Below, in pieces: positions 29,431-33,945 of a stretch of 64,000 bases of DNA. A program made the translations under genes and the position numbers. The notes under the pieces are model-generated. The model saw only the letters and a program-made list of their open reading frames with translations, had not been told where the DNA came from and did not search any database. The first letter of the stretch is position 1. Each line of letters starts with the position of its first letter. This stretch comes from Methylomonas sp. 11b (GTDB taxonomy: Bacteria; Pseudomonadota; Gammaproteobacteria; Methylococcales; Methylomonadaceae), in NCBI RefSeq assembly GCF_000515215.1, contig NZ_KI911557.1, positions 3,777,741-3,841,740 on the forward strand, read 5' to 3'.

Positions 29431-29726
29431 TGTGCATCGGCATCCCCATGCAAGTCATTGAACCCCTCGGCGATTCCGCGCTGTGCGAGTATCGCGGCCA
29501 AACCACGCTGATCGACATGATGTTGGTGGGCGAACAAGTCGCCGGCACTTGGTTGCTGGTATTTCTGGATGCGGCTCGGGAAGTTATCTCAGCAGAACGC
29601 GCCGCACAAATCGCCGATGCCTTGGAAGCCATGCGTTTAGCCATGCAAGGTGAAACCAACTTCGATCATTTATTCGCCGATCTGGTCGACCGCGAACCCG
29701 AACTGCCGGAGTTTTTAAGAACATGA
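29430..29726 (+). CDS. hupF: HypC-family hydrogenase chaperone HupF
   Basis: Paralogue of HypC, 98 residues, starting MCIGIPMQV with the essential Cys2 that holds the Fe(CN)2CO precursor or contacts HupL. HupF forms have a longer C-terminus than HypC (75 residues here at 36994) and help protect the large subunit when oxygen is present. Start overlaps hupD stop (TGATG) and the end overlaps hupG. Confidence 0.93.
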   Translation: MCIGIPMQVIEPLGDSALCEYRGQTTLIDMMLVGEQVAGTWLLVFLDAAREVISAERAAQIADALEAMRLAMQGETNFDHLFADLVDREPELPEFLRT

Positions 29727-30145
29727 GCACACCCTTGCTGGAGCAACTGCAAACCCGCCATGGCCTGCCGCTGCTGGATGCCGATGGTTATGATTTATTC
29801 GTACACGGTCGTGACACCGTTGTACTGTTCTTTGCCAACGATCCCATGATGTTTCCGGAAAGCCACGATGTGGCCGTGATTTTGCCGGAGTTGTTAAAAG
29901 CCTTTGCTGGGCGTTTACACGGTGCGGTGATCGATAAATCCATCGAACGCGAATTGCAGGCCAGGTTTAGATTTACCAGTTGGCCGTCTTTGGTGTTTTT
30001 GCGCGGCGGTGAGTATCTGGGCGTGATTACCGGGATTAAGGATTGGGCGGAATACGGGCAGGAGTTTGCGCGGATTTTGGCCGCCGAGCCGGGGCAGCCG
30101 CCGGGGTTTGATCTTGGGAAGGTTTGTGGGGTTGGGCATGCTTAG
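29723..30145 (+). CDS. hupG: HyaE/HupG thioredoxin-like hydrogenase chaperone
   Basis: Chaperone of 140 residues with a thioredoxin fold but no CxxC active site; family members bind the Tat signal peptide of the small subunit. Seen: VVLFFANDPMMFPESHDVAVILPELL and RFRFTSWPSLVFLRGGEYLGVITGIKDW, both typical of HyaE/HupG. It overlaps hupF by 4 bases. It is the last hup gene before a 2.9-kb insertion that separates it from hupH, its usual neighbour. Confidence 0.9.
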   Translation: MSTPLLEQLQTRHGLPLLDADGYDLFVHGRDTVVLFFANDPMMFPESHDVAVILPELLKAFAGRLHGAVIDKSIERELQARFRFTSWPSLVFLRGGEYLGVITGIKDWAEYGQEFARILAAEPGQPPGFDLGKVCGVGHA

Positions 30146-30161
30146 TTTTCAAAAAATGTAG

Positions 30162-30192
30162 GTTGGGTTAGCTCGATAGAGCGTAACCCAAC
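30162..30192. repeat. Hairpin repeat just after hupG
   Basis: GTTGGGTTA-GCTC / GAGC-TAACCCAAC folds into a 13-bp stem with loop GATA and a single bulged G at 30183. Such GTTGGGTTA elements look like dispersed small repeats. A second small hairpin AGCCAG/CTGGCT (30206-30221) followed by GCGCGCTTTTT may terminate the first half of the hup transcript. Confidence 0.55.
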
Positions 30193-30288
30193 ATTCGAAG
30201 CCAAAAGCCAGTTTTCTGGCTAGCGCGCTTTTTGGTCGAGGATTAAGTTCTCACCGGCTCTTTAACAATTTGGTGTCACTATTGCGCA

Positions 30289-30317
30289 GTACTCCAACAG
30301 TCTTTATGTTGGAGTAC
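30289..30317. promoter_or_regulatory. Operator-like inverted repeat upstream of ccdAB
   Basis: GTACTCCAAC / GTTGGAGTAC, perfect 10-bp inverses with a 9-base spacer, 39 bp before the ccdA ATG. Toxin-antitoxin operons are normally repressed by their own antitoxin-toxin complex bound to such repeats. Confidence 0.6.
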
Positions 30318-30355
30318 AATGCGCATAATAAAGCCGTACTCATGGAGACAACATC

Positions 30356-30595
30356 ATGGCAGCCACGAACAGCGCCTCAAAGAAAGCCACCAACATCACC
30401 TTGTCTGCCGATGTGCTCGCAGAGGCCAAGGCATTGAATATCAATATTTCGCAGGCCTGCGACCGACACCTGCGCGAGTTGGTGCGCGGCGAAAGAGAGA
30501 GGCGTTGGCAGCAAGAGCATGCCGAGTTTATCGCAGCCTACAACCAAACGATTGAGCAAGACGGTTTGCCGCTAGACGAATGGCGGTCTTTCTGA
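30356..30595 (+). CDS. ccdA: CcdA-family antitoxin
   Basis: Antitoxin of 79 residues. The N-terminus (ATNITLSADVLAEAKALNINISQACDRHL) is the ribbon-helix-helix DNA-binding domain of CcdA; the C-terminus (about 45-79, ending LPLDEWRSF) is the flexible part that wraps the toxin and matches the CcdA ending. It lies 1 bp before ccdB. Located inside the hydrogenase cluster between hupG and hupH, with its own operator-like repeat, so it is an insertion and not part of the hup system. Confidence 0.9.
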   Translation: MAATNSASKKATNITLSADVLAEAKALNINISQACDRHLRELVRGERERRWQQEHAEFIAAYNQTIEQDGLPLDEWRSF

Positions 30596-30596
30596 A

Positions 30597-30914
30597 ATGG
30601 CGCGTTTCGATGTTTACCGCAATAGCAGTACAACGTCTGACGACGTACCGTATCTGCTGGATGTGCAAAGCGATGTCTTGAATTCTTTGGAGAGTCGAGT
30701 CGTCGTACCGCTGCGCCGGCTTGATCGCTTTCCGGCAGTCAAATTACCCACTAATTTGAGCCCGATTGTGGTGGTCGATGGTCTTGAGTGTGTGTTGGAA
30801 ACGCCGAAATTGGCAGCTGTTCCGGCTCGGATTTTGAAATCACCGATTATGTCGTTGGAAGCGCAGCGGTTTGAGATAGGGGCCGCGTTGGATTTTTTGT
30901 TTCAGGGGTTTTGA
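30597..30914 (+). CDS. ccdB: CcdB-family toxin (gyrase-poison type)
   Basis: Toxin of 105 residues. MARFDVYRN, YLLDVQSDVLNSLESRVVVPL and AVPARILKSPIMSLE match CcdB along the length. The F-plasmid toxin kills through its C-terminal Trp-Gly-Ile; here the end is LDFLFQGF, so Trp is replaced by Gln and Ile by Phe. Some chromosomal CcdB proteins may have lost or changed target, so toxicity to gyrase is uncertain. It ends 4 bases before the left copy of the long inverted repeat. Confidence 0.88.
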   Translation: MARFDVYRNSSTTSDDVPYLLDVQSDVLNSLESRVVVPLRRLDRFPAVKLPTNLSPIVVVDGLECVLETPKLAAVPARILKSPIMSLEAQRFEIGAALDFLFQGF

Positions 30915-30918
30915 TTGA

Positions 30919-31251
30919 TTTGGTGTCGCTATCGCGACGGTTTTTTCGAAGTCGGTTTCACGAAAAACATCCCTGTTTTTCGCCCTACGGGTGCTTCGCA
31001 TGCAAATCGGCAATCCTGCCGATTTGTCGGCCCGACAGCCGAAATACTTTCTTTTGCGTGACCAAAAGAAAGTATCCAAAGAAAAGGCCACCCGACATTC
31101 CGCCTCAATCCTGCGCTTCTCGCTTTTGGCGAGGGTTTTCGGAAGGGGCTTCCCAGCCCCTCCGAAAACGAGCGGCATCCCTGCCGCTCCCCTGCGGGCT
31201 GATCTCGCCAAAAGCTGCGATGCTCGGGGCGGAATAACGGGAACAGCCCAC
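30919..31251 (+). repeat. Long repeat, left copy of an inverted pair flanking the ankyrin gene
   Basis: Starts at the end motif TTTGGTGTCGCTATCGCG and includes GGCCACCCGacATTCCGCC, CTGCGCTTCTCGCTTTTGG, GAGGGTTTTCGGAAGGG, CGAGCGGCATCCCTGCCGC and AAAAGCTGCGATGCTCGGGG. The same blocks, in reverse complement and the same relative order, occur at 32766-33023. The left copy is about 75 bp longer near its outer end. Short open frames across it are not convincing genes. Confidence 0.85.
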
Positions 31252-31387
31252 TCCAGCGGTTATTGTGTGTAGCAAAGGTTTTTTGGTGGGTTGGGATGCG
31301 AGTGTAAACCCAGTTTTGGCCTATATTGCTGGGTATCGCTTTGCTCTATCCAGACCACGAACTGCCACAAACGTTTTGGAGTGTTTG

Positions 31388-32692
31388 ATGTATCGAATAT
31401 TGTTGCTGTCATTTTTTTTGCTTCCCGGTTGTCAAACGAATGTCAGACCAGACTCCGCTTGCCAATCCATAATTGAAATTGCCGATGCCGGAAAAATCCA
31501 ATCTGCGGTGTTACGGGATGACCCTTCCTTGCGTGAATCATTTCCGGCAATACTCAAAACATCAATTTATACCGTTAAAGCAGATCTTAATGGCGATGGC
31601 TTTGAAGAGATATTTGGTTCATTTCCAGTCGATGCATCACTTAGTGGGTTAGTTGCTGGAATCAATTCAGACTATGAATTGGCGCTGATAAATTCGGTCC
31701 GTGAGCACGGGGATGAAATAAAGGTTAGTGGGGCGCAAGACTTCATCAATCCGATTACTACAGATACTTATGAAAAACGAGTAGTTAAAGTCGATGGTGT
31801 ACCGTACATCGTTGTATTGAATGCAGGTTATCGAGGACGCCACGCTTTTGTCACTGACGAGAGTTCTCCTAGGGCTGTTTGGCGGGTAACGGACAATTTT
31901 CAGCTTGCTGTTGAATGCGAGCTTGAGCAATTTCAAGAAGCGGACGGTAAAAAATATCACCGAATTCTAAAAGATGACGAACGCATTCTTCGGGAAGCTA
32001 AGGAAAATCGCACGCCTGATAATAATCCGTGGTATTCGATTAGCCGTTTGCCTGGACTTACTGCTTTTGAGGTAGCGCTTGCCGCAGGCTGGGATATAAA
32101 TTCATCAGGGGAATACTCAACACCACCACTATGGGTGGCTATTTATGAAAAACGGTTGGATTTGGTCAAAGCGCTCTTGTTAGCGGGTGCTTTGCCAAAT
32201 GTCTTTCCGGAAGAGCCGGAAAAGGGGCATGAAAACCGATCGGTGACCCCTATTGAATATGCAATTTATCCTGAAGCAGACTACAACCTAGCAAAAATCC
32301 TTGTCGAAGCCGTAGGTAGCAACAATTTAAAGATTCAAAATGGTGGTAGCGCATTGTCTGATGCAATTCTTTACGATCAACCGGAAATTGTGGAGCTTTT
32401 ATTAAATAACGGTGCTGAAATAGACGACCTGTCAGTTGCACAGTGGATGGGAGGGGCCGAAAACGATTCCGCAGAGAAGATGCTCCAACTATTGGTGGCG
32501 CATAGATTGAACCTAAACAAGAGTTATAGATTTGAATTTCCAGTTTCGGGAATTAATCGAATCAATGAGACCACGCTGTCTGTCGGTCCAGACATTACAT
32601 TTGCCGAAAAGCAATTGACCCCGCTTGAGTTTGCGAGATATATGGGGAATAAGCCAGCCGAGAAATTACTTATTCAGGCTGGGGCGAAATAA
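31388..32692 (+). CDS. Lipoprotein with ankyrin-like repeats, unknown function
   Basis: 434 residues. A lipobox LLPGC (Cys15) follows a short signal, predicting an outer- or inner-membrane lipoprotein. Residues about 20-210 are an unrecognised domain that includes a DLNGDGFEEIFG calcium-loop/FG-GAP-like stretch. From about 225 ankyrin-type repeats follow: LTAFEVALAAGWDIN, TPPLWVAIYEKRLDLVKALLLAGALPN, SALSDAILYDQPEIVELLLNNGAEID and LTPLEFARYMGNKPAEKLLIQAGAK. ATG 31388 is chosen for the lipobox; the frame upstream lies in the repeat. Base composition is visibly more A+T-rich than the hup genes. It sits between inverted repeat copies, so it was probably acquired horizontally. Not a known hydrogenase factor. 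Confidence 0.8.
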   Translation: MYRILLLSFFLLPGCQTNVRPDSACQSIIEIADAGKIQSAVLRDDPSLRESFPAILKTSIYTVKADLNGDGFEEIFGSFPVDASLSGLVAGINSDYELALINSVREHGDEIKVSGAQDFINPITTDTYEKRVVKVDGVPYIVVLNAGYRGRHAFVTDESSPRAVWRVTDNFQLAVECELEQFQEADGKKYHRILKDDERILREAKENRTPDNNPWYSISRLPGLTAFEVALAAGWDINSSGEYSTPPLWVAIYEKRLDLVKALLLAGALPNVFPEEPEKGHENRSVTPIEYAIYPEADYNLAKILVEAVGSNNLKIQNGGSALSDAILYDQPEIVELLLNNGAEIDDLSVAQWMGGAENDSAEKMLQLLVAHRLNLNKSYRFEFPVSGINRINETTLSVGPDITFAEKQLTPLEFARYMGNKPAEKLLIQAGAK

Positions 32693-32765
32693 TAAGTCAT
32701 CCCTAGATGATCGGGGATACATCTTGTGTTCACCTGATTTACCTTTGAATTTCAGAACGGTTTTC

Positions 32766-33023
32766 TCCCGTTATTCAGCCCCGAGCATCGCAGCTTTTGG
32801 CGAGATTAGCCCGATAGGGGAGCGGCAGGGATGCCGCTCGTTTTCGCAGGGCCAGGGATGGCCCTTCCGAAAACCCTCGCCAAAAGCGAGAAGCGCAGGA
32901 TTAAGGCGGAATTCCGGGTGGCCTTTCTTTTGGTGACTTTTCTTTGGCCAAACAAAGAAAAGTTACTCGGCTGTCGGGCCGAGACCCGACATGCAAAACC
33001 ATCCTCGCGATAGCGACACCAAA
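32766..33023 (-). repeat. Long repeat, right (inverted) copy
   Basis: Reverse complement of the 30919-31251 repeat, ending with CGCGATAGCGACACCAAA (33006-33023), the inverse of the left end motif. Largely matching blocks alternate with divergent ones. It lies 73 bp before hupH and 73 bp after the ankyrin gene. Forward open frames across it have repeat-derived sequence and are not called as genes. Confidence 0.85.
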
Positions 33024-33096
33024 TAAACCAACAATCCGACGCCGGATACATTTCGTCTATCCAGCCTACGAACTTAATTCAACAAACAACCAAAAT

Positions 33097-33945
33097 ATGA
33101 CCAGCATATCTCTCCCAATTTTCGGCCAAGGCAGCCAACCCGCCGAGGAAGACGGCGTCGAACTCGACTATCTGGCGATGCCGGAAGAAATGGCGACCTA
33201 CCGGATGCCGACCATTTCGGTGGACTTGAATGCGACCGATTTGGCGCAGGCCAAAACCGTATTGCAGCAACTGGAACAGGATTTGGCAACGTATCCGGCA
33301 AGCAGCCAAACCATAGATTTGATATCCCTGGACCAAACCAATCGCCAGTTCGTCGACGAACTGCTCGGCGAAGGCGAAGTCAGCATGCTCTGTAAAGGCG
33401 CGCAAACTCTGCGGATTCAGGAATCGGTGCTGGCCGGTGTCTGGCGTTCGCAACGCCTCGACGCGCAAAAGCAGATCGTTACCGATACATTGGAAGTCGG
33501 CATCATTCCCCAAGCCATCCTGCAAACCGCATTTGCCGATGCCGCCAAGCATATCGATACTGACATGAGCGCGCTGCCGGACGGTGTGATGAACGCACCG
33601 CCGTTGTTGGCGGAGTTGAATGCCAAGATCGCCGAGTATCAACCCGGCACCGAAGCGCATATCATCAACTTGAGTTTGCTGCCGCAAACCGAGCAGGATT
33701 TGGCGTTTCTGGAGCAACGCTTGGGCAAGGGCGCGGTGACGATTTTGTCGCGCGGTTACGGTAATTGTCGGATCGACGCTACCGCCACCCACAATGTCTG
33801 GTGGGTGCGGTATTTTAATTCGCAGGATACGTTAATCCTGAATACGCTGGAAGTCAGCGAGGTGCCGAACGTAGCTTGTGCGTCCGCGGAAGACATCGCC
33901 GATAGCCATCAGCGTTTGCAGGAAATTTTGCAGGTGTATTTGTGA
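33097..33945 (+). CDS. hupH: Hydrogenase expression/formation protein HupH (HyaF family)
   Basis: Assembly factor of 282 residues for the small subunit/oxygen protection, as in Rhizobium HupH. Two related halves are visible: SQTIDLISLDQTNRQFVDELLGEGEVSMLCKG and EAHIINLSLLPQTEQDLAFLEQRLGKGAVTILSRGYGNCRI, and the ending NTLEVSEVPNVACASAEDIADSHQRLQEIL fits the family. ATG 33097 is used: the open frame upstream crosses the repeat. It overlaps hupI by 4 bases. Since an insertion separates it from hupG, its promoter must now lie in or near the repeat, or read through from ccdAB/ankyrin. Confidence 0.9.
   Translation: MTSISLPIFGQGSQPAEEDGVELDYLAMPEEMATYRMPTISVDLNATDLAQAKTVLQQLEQDLATYPASSQTIDLISLDQTNRQFVDELLGEGEVSMLCKGAQTLRIQESVLAGVWRSQRLDAQKQIVTDTLEVGIIPQAILQTAFADAAKHIDTDMSALPDGVMNAPPLLAELNAKIAEYQPGTEAHIINLSLLPQTEQDLAFLEQRLGKGAVTILSRGYGNCRIDATATHNVWWVRYFNSQDTLILNTLEVSEVPNVACASAEDIADSHQRLQEILQVYL

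Follow-up and report, generated by a model that had tools for sequence, protein, structure and literature searches.

Inverted, structured repeat arms frame a probable docking slot for exchangeable genes in the hup operon of Methylomonas sp. 11b

How does a hydrogenase operon come to carry a foreign-looking insert between two of its genes, and what kind of element is that insert? The question arises in a 64,000-nucleotide stretch (the window, positions 3777741-3841740) of the 5.41-Mb, single-contig genome of Methylomonas sp. 11b. An earlier note on this DNA had described, at window positions 30146-33096 between hupG and hupH, the genes ccdAB and an ankyrin gene richer in A+T, together with a pair of inverted repeats; all three were confirmed, and the cassette indeed looks foreign and is bounded by related inverted repeats. 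We propose, as the probable though not assured answer, that the chromosome has about two dozen fixed docking slots, of which the insert is one, and that their cargo is replaced by homologous exchange between alleles of the same slot. The slot architecture, inverted structured arms around swappable cargo, is one that we rate as new.

A search of the genome with a 3.2-kb query gave 124 matches, nearly all of them to the repeats that we call arms. For closer study, loci of this genome were picked for holding arms, with 40 of 77 first-look candidates scored, and arms were located in them with a profile built from 31 copies; the counts given below are those of the sites in hand. In total 234 chained arm copies were obtained from this genome and others, of which 43 own and 119 other copies were near full length (about 255 bp). 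The right arm of the hup insert was matched in 34 of 37 genomes of the genus (the own genome included) and in 6 of 24 others of the order, and chance similarity, which the earlier note had named as a way to be wrong about the repeats, does not account for them. Close arm neighbours in the own loci were oriented '-+' in 24 cases, '+-' in 2, '++' in 4 and '--' in 2, a bias towards inverted orientation with p=1e-5; over all loci the figures were 97, 8, 11 and 9 (p=1e-20, with orthologous loci included, so that these are non-independent). In 24 of the 26 close inverted neighbours of the own loci the inner ends face inward and frame a spacer. Similar repeat pairs with other cargo, for which the earlier note had proposed to look elsewhere in the genome, are thus present as 24 pairs. 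Their spacers measure between 150 bp and 2.9 kb; of these, five are shorter than 250 bp, and the rest hold one to four open reading frames (ORFs), mostly one. All 19 own spacers of at least 500 bp had a G+C content below that of their flanks (mean 0.44 vs 0.54), five own spacers below 500 bp and one pair of opposite orientation having been set aside. The own genome has 46 exact matches to the motif of the outer hairpin of the arm, almost all of them at the ends of arms, vs 0 for the control.

Some own loci differ in layout. At 2019151-2021298 (G000:C1, L082), three fragmented arms lie in direct orientation about 920 bp apart, in contrast to inverted pairs at other loci. Four arm pairs occur within 23 kb at 1609736-1633023 (G000:C1, L078 and L079); three of them are bridged in relatives, mostly with other cargo there. 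The '+-' neighbours at 1738096-1739766 (G000:C1, L081) enclose a 374-aa ORF that looks ABC-permease-like by eye (G+C 0.50 vs 0.55), and in the other own '+-' pair (L084) one arm is fragmented.

Whether these pairs are fixed in place was assessed by comparison with relatives. Flank queries from 16 own slots were run against five relatives and the regions retrieved, and bridging used the flanks of 18 own slots; a slot-genome combination was counted as bridged when it was colinear in the regions in hand. Grouping of slots by their flanks had merged several slots, which were split by hand. Among the 58 bridged combinations, 54 had arms in both orientations, 2 had one arm and 2 had none. Both arm-free combinations belong to the slot at 3345 kb, where the one in G017 is near-empty (218 bp) and poorly aligned. 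In 15 of the 58, the two flanks together leave no more than 5 bp unaligned at the outer ends of the arms. The contents of the slots were far less constant: 175 of 201 same-slot genome pairs had non-homologous cargo and 26 homologous cargo, and 140 cargo ORFs fell into 104 families.

The point at which homology between same-slot alleles stops was then related to the inner edge of the arm; this analysis, like the arm-identity comparison and the alignment of own arms, was confined to arms near full length. Of 350 junctions, 46% lay within 10 bp of the edge, 33% at 11-100 bp and 20% at more than 100 bp, and at some slots one side kept 100-170 bp of slot-specific sequence. Over arm columns 1-140, identity was 0.86-0.95 between arms of the same slot with different cargo vs 0.71-0.86 between slots. 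Same-slot arms of different species were more alike up to the inner edge even when the cargo differed (ORF-less spacers being counted as different). Crossover between slots inside the arms was rejected as the main route because slot-specific identity reaches the inner edge. Sharing of cargo was likewise bound to the slot. When cargo families F0-F4 and F6 were left aside, which were judged to be REP-associated tyrosine transposases (RAYTs; F0 and F2, four members confirmed; REP, repetitive extragenic palindromic) or, by eye, insertion sequences (IS) or genes travelling with them, 13 shared proteins (11 cassette pairs) were in the same slot vs 2 in different slots. Shuffling slots within genomes gave a mean of 1.8 same-slot sharings, and none of 2000 shuffles reached 13. 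This shows that cargo seldom changes slot, with common descent contributing to the same-slot sharing.

The hup slot gives the most detailed view of this arrangement. Its parts, in window coordinates, are as follows.

29723..30145, + strand: hupG (HyaE family), left neighbour of the slot (PF07449, 100 bits)
30269..30286, + strand: outer left terminus TTTGGTGTCACTATTGCG, 18 bp, remnant of the outer hairpin of an arm (motif scan)
30356..30595, + strand: ccdA antitoxin (PF07362, 103.6 bits)
30597..30914, + strand: ccdB toxin-family protein (PF01845, 115.6 bits)
30919..31242, - strand: left arm, structured repeat, 5' end cargo-proximal at 31242 (profile matches 30921-30958 and 31025-31242)
30919-30936: outer terminus of the left arm, a second, direct copy of the 18-bp motif (motif scan)
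31388..32692, + strand: cargo gene for a 434-aa ankyrin-repeat protein (Ank_2, 38.7 bits; cut-off 27.3)
32766..33022, + strand: right arm, structured repeat, 5' end cargo-proximal (similarity and profile searches)
33006..33023, - strand: outer right terminus CGCGATAGCGACACCAAA, inverted copy of the left terminus (motif scan)
33097..33945, + strand: hupH, right neighbour of the slot (PF04809, 224 bits)

As an inverted repeat, the arms are 87% complementary over 167 nt (31027-31193 with 32816-32982), and a further 48 nt match at 96%; about 66 additional bp separate positions 217 and 218 of the left arm. The spacer has a G+C content of 0.44 vs 0.55 in the flanks, and the N-terminus of the ankyrin protein reads, by eye, as lipobox-like (LPGC). 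Since the 18-bp termini of the slot lie at 30269-30286 and 33006-33023, ccdAB is inside the slot, which corrects the earlier note. The operon genes look intact, as had been noted: Pfam domains are retained in all ten proteins scanned from the hup/hyp region, with hypC, D, E and F outside the scan.

The hup interval was compared from 22 relatives, some of whose sequences end at contig ends. In 14 species, the own one included, an inverted arm pair frames cargo at hup, with 11 alleles. The ankyrin protein fills the slot in the own genome and G036, a membrane protein of 320-339 aa is the cargo in G012, G028 and G035, and the remaining species otherwise have differing genes; a RAYT is the cargo in G015 and is also present in the intervals of G016, G013 and G007, which lack a complete arm pair. 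Both 18-bp termini were found with at most 3 mismatches in 18 of 19 scanned intervals (own plus 17 of 18 relatives), the left one 79-208 bp after hupG in 17 of the 18 relatives scanned. In G032 the gap between hupG and hupH is only 314 bp and has neither terminus. The toxin-antitoxin module sits outside the arms and inside the termini. ccdAB occurs at hup in 8 genomes, own counted, and in 7 of these 8 it is enclosed by two copies of the left terminus, which have the same orientation and are about 650 bp from each other. Other species have BrnT/CopG-like genes (G017 and G011, those of G017 being under the Pfam cut-offs) or a ParE-like gene (G009, above its cut-off) at hup. The earlier note had considered an addiction module that stabilises the cluster; with such genes in the hup slots of other species, an exchangeable passenger fits as well.

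The ankyrin gene was present in 3 of 37 genomes of the genus, and cargo varies; the case that the earlier note had named as refuting it, with ccdAB and the ankyrin gene at this position in all relatives and no repeat boundary, is therefore not what the relatives show. Nine other close homologues of the protein (E 1e-104 or better) were found among 7997 candidates scored, and the three with a named source are from Methylomonas. A truncated ankyrin gene in G005 is separated by about 0.77 kb from a hupH tail downstream of it (L270, 1165-3240). Several identities at the hup slot conflict between cargo and flanks. G017 and G011 share 96.8% in the BrnT-like and 91.2% in the CopG-like protein vs 72.8/71.5% in hupG/hupH; G028 and G035 share 83% in cargo vs 74/72% in hupG/hupH; and G028 and G012 share 65% in cargo vs 92% in hupH. 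As far as such comparisons of sequence go, they suggest exchange between species.

A side observation concerns G005 again, where remnants of the ankyrin gene and of arms, with the final 46 codons of an own-like hupH, all lie apart from an intact, more distant hupH.

The arms themselves have a strongly covarying fold. RNAalifold on 42 own arms predicted 81 pairs, of which 32 were changed on both sides. A hand-drawn structure has 63 pairs in 8 helices, with 98.6% of cells paired and 25 of the 63 pairs changed on both sides; it comprises a closing stem (H0), a long helix (H1) enclosing the GGA-loop hairpins H2 and H3, a hairpin H4, the overlapping H5a and H5b, and the outer hairpin H6. Its covariation was 0.274 vs 0.092 for shuffled and at most 0.060 for slid alignments, the structure being favoured against the slid control by its derivation from the same sequences and against the shuffles by the kinship of paralogues. 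On the strand read from the cargo outward, 45 G-U stood against 5 A-C, and this strand is therefore favoured, as RNA or as single-stranded DNA (ssDNA). H5a and H5b overlap as a would-be pseudoknot, whose simultaneous formation is doubtful because its third loop is one base; the two may be alternative helices instead. In a class-wide alignment of 32 matches, all 38 predicted pairs were compensated, in an alignment that was fitted to the model and has four weak rows without H2/H3.

GGA was present in H2 of 41 and in H3 of 42 of the 42 own arms, and in both loops of the predicted fold in all 19 representatives from the class. The CsrA-binding motif is given as A(N)GGA in hairpin loops in PMC5864184. 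The own genome encodes CsrA, and by that description the H2 and H3 loops are possibly CsrA-type sites. CsrB/RsmZ-type small RNAs (Rfam clan CL00106) have A(N)GGA hairpin loops too, according to PMC5864184, whereas the two GGA hairpins of the arm are embedded in a larger fold that occurs in many genomic copies in inverted pairs. No Rfam family reached its gathering score in 20 arm-bearing loci, and the arm was rejected as a known Rfam RNA; the stretch of the window gave weak, sub-threshold matches to TwoAYGGAY and RsmW. Terminator-like sites numbered 16 vs 7.1 expected, and one of them is formed by the outer hairpin at 30924 with the T run after it; it reads inward, in keeping with an insulator. 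A promoter-like site was not found there (4.9 expected).

The cargo between arms is mostly one A+T-rich gene. Cargo proteins were scanned with Pfam, and 30 of them (10 own and 20 larger ones of relatives) with PADLOC. Eight of the 30, from seven cassettes, matched better than 1e-9; as the set was chosen and not random, no enrichment is claimed. There was no match at 1e-4 in 15 of the 20 relatives' proteins and none at 0.01 in 5 of the 10 own. Matches to defence families included a dCTP deaminase (dCTPase, 543 bits), a KAP NTPase (PDC-S20, 512 bits), a SIR2 protein (59 bits) and, in a single G012 cassette, a type II-A retron reverse transcriptase (402 bits) together with its partner NDT (276 bits); AAA/OLD-type ATPases (HEC-04, 171 bits; AriA, 48 bits) were present too. 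The ankyrin protein, one of the eight, matched PDC-M72A with 38 bits, over its ankyrin part. Other cargo had HNH, Mrr, GNAT or LprI domains, and many proteins had no family.

Outside the genus the element is patchy. R1, a model of the 5' domain of the arm used for the class and phylum searches, matched 27 of 274 genomes of the class (own included) in 24 of 222 genera; among 299 genomes of the phylum it matched 3, the own one and two others that likewise belong to this class. Ten other families each supplied one genome in which a '-+' pair had both its arms among the matches listed at 1e-5. We viewed 11 intervals in other families: 6 hold an ORF in DNA that is G+C-poorer than its surroundings, and 4 are short or without a convincing gene. 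Searches of 50,697 phage records gave no match and those of viral contigs no exact hit to the pattern, and a phage origin was rejected; so was a plasmid origin, for which only a 52-54-nt piece of the H4 region was found, in 1 Aeromonas and 3 Pasteurella records. This piece is 94-96% identical in Pasteurella and Aeromonas (L154 4001-4052; L153 4001-4054), and the Pasteurella copy examined lies beside dapF. By title, no description of the arm element was found among the open-licence papers searched, which is weak evidence of absence.

Under the docking-slot scheme, arm pairs would have been laid down earlier as giant REPIN-like doublets, perhaps with the help of RAYTs, and once fixed would serve as docking slots for a mostly single A+T-rich accessory gene. 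Cargo would be replaced through homologous recombination of same-slot alleles, with arms and flanks supplying the homology. The arm RNA could act as a symmetric insulator or 3' untranslated region, whichever way the enclosed gene points, and CsrA may bind it at the GGA loops. A wider claim, which we advance only tentatively, is that of an undescribed gammaproteobacterial cassette system, in which inverted structured RNA/ssDNA arms with paired CsrA-type hairpins, sited at fixed chromosomal slots, promote the capture of single accessory or anti-phage genes and their exchange at the inner edge, by a mechanism distinct from transposons, integrons and phage-borne islands.

Several observations weigh against these proposals. 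The recombination event itself was not observed in the genomes compared. Break points are non-uniform: a fifth of the junctions run more than 100 bp past the arm edge, and same-slot likeness extends about 80 nt inside the arms on average (with ORF-less spacers counted as different cargo). In arm columns 161-220 the slot signal is only 0.01-0.02 above background, to return in columns 221-252, and short tracts seem to have been exchanged between slots in the former. One of five covariation measures, further pair types, was unremarkable (53 vs 49.6; 52/500), and what points to CsrA binding by the arm is the motif itself. Of 13 own RAYTs over the NCBIfam cut-off, 10 are outside the pairs in hand. 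In G288, from another family (L259, 1101-3593), a pair flanks a core gene, a metG-like ORF of 682 aa by eye, with no G+C contrast, and neighbours are '+-' in G069 and G332 and '++' in G308.

Other routes by which cargo could arrive have to be set beside the docking-slot scheme. The earlier note had thought of a transposon-like unit, here taken as an ordinary composite transposon or a mobile insertion cassette (MIC)-like insertion of ankyrin cargo between IS-like ends. Inverted ends do surround foreign-looking cargo, but in 24 own pairs (one left end unreadable) shared flank words were at most 5 bp long and had no constant place, so that there is no consistent target-site duplication; no transposase was seen by eye among the ORFs of the hup unit; and the comparison with relatives gave both arms in 54 of 58 bridged slot-genome combinations, other cargo in the same slot in most relatives, and cargo families that keep to their slots. 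We regard this idea as highly improbable. A clean empty site was not found in relatives, the candidates being the short hupG-hupH gap of G032 and the poorly aligned interval of G017. A dedicated recombinase that inserts or exchanges single genes at the inner edge, integron-like with the folded arm as its site, would agree with the share of junctions within 10 bp of the edge and with the direct repeat of the terminus around ccdAB. Integron gene cassettes are single, diverse, A+T-rich accessory genes beside a folded repeat, and the cargo here is like them in each respect. The arms, however, are inverted and form no tandem arrays as attC sites do in direct repetition, the slots are scattered over the chromosome, a fifth of the junctions lie more than 100 bp inside, and no integrase was seen among the cargo scanned, a genome-wide integrase search not having been made; on balance such a recombinase seems improbable.

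Mobility driven by RAYTs has more to recommend it and is nevertheless unlikely. Here the arms would be giant REPs, and the arm-cargo-arm unit would be cut or copied and pasted in trans via its hairpin ends. REPs are short units with a conserved 5' tetranucleotide, and arms of about 255 nt with an eight-helix covarying fold and GGA loops are far longer than those known. REPINs, according to PMC3116915, are linked to RAYT genes and consist of two inverted copies of a hairpin-forming repeat around a spacer. The inverted doublets of arms resemble them, including 9 of 98 pairs that are ORF-less with spacers of 128-279 bp. The RAYT is also the most recurrent cargo (12 of 98 pairs over all loci), the outer-hairpin motif is concentrated at arm ends, and 3 of the 13 own RAYTs lie within pairs that cover roughly 0.8% of the genome (p about 1e-4, with 12 RAYTs assumed); one more RAYT is in pieces. 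On the other side, changes of slot by cargo are rare, arms are slot-specific to the inner edge, most bridged slots are occupied in relatives, and the doublets are fixed at slots, their spacers being occupied by genes and reaching 2.9 kb in the own genome. As most own RAYTs are outside pairs, the RAYT was rejected as sole driver.

The docking-slot scheme finds its closest parallel in Neisseria, where minimal mobile elements are sites at which strains differ in the whole-gene cassette lying between two conserved genes, the cassettes being incorporated by homologous recombination (PMC3082526). The 11 cargo alleles in 14 species at hup and the differing cargo of most same-slot pairs are alike in kind, with species compared here, not strains, and the identity patterns at the hup slot would fit same-slot exchange. 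A minimal mobile element is not known to need a dedicated border element. The slots described here differ in that arms border them on both sides in nearly all bridged combinations, that these inverted structured arms are one genome-wide family which occurs in other gammaproteobacterial families as well, and that the cargo often changes at the arm edge. We know of no other kind of slot bordered by a dedicated family of structured arms.

The findings point to the arm as an uncatalogued structured element, patchy over a bacterial class, that marks sites of swappable single genes, some of them for defence. Scanning between arms offers a handle for finding new defence genes, and the creation of recombination slots by a folded repeat becomes directly testable. 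The hydrogenase operon, for its part, shows how an operon may be interrupted at a single fixed place in most relatives and still keep its genes.

Two minor repeats were also seen in or beside the hup slot: a further short repeat with the hairpin GTAGGTTGGGTTAGC at window positions 30158-30197, and a 24-bp direct repeat at 83% identity (31340-31363 and 33051-33074).

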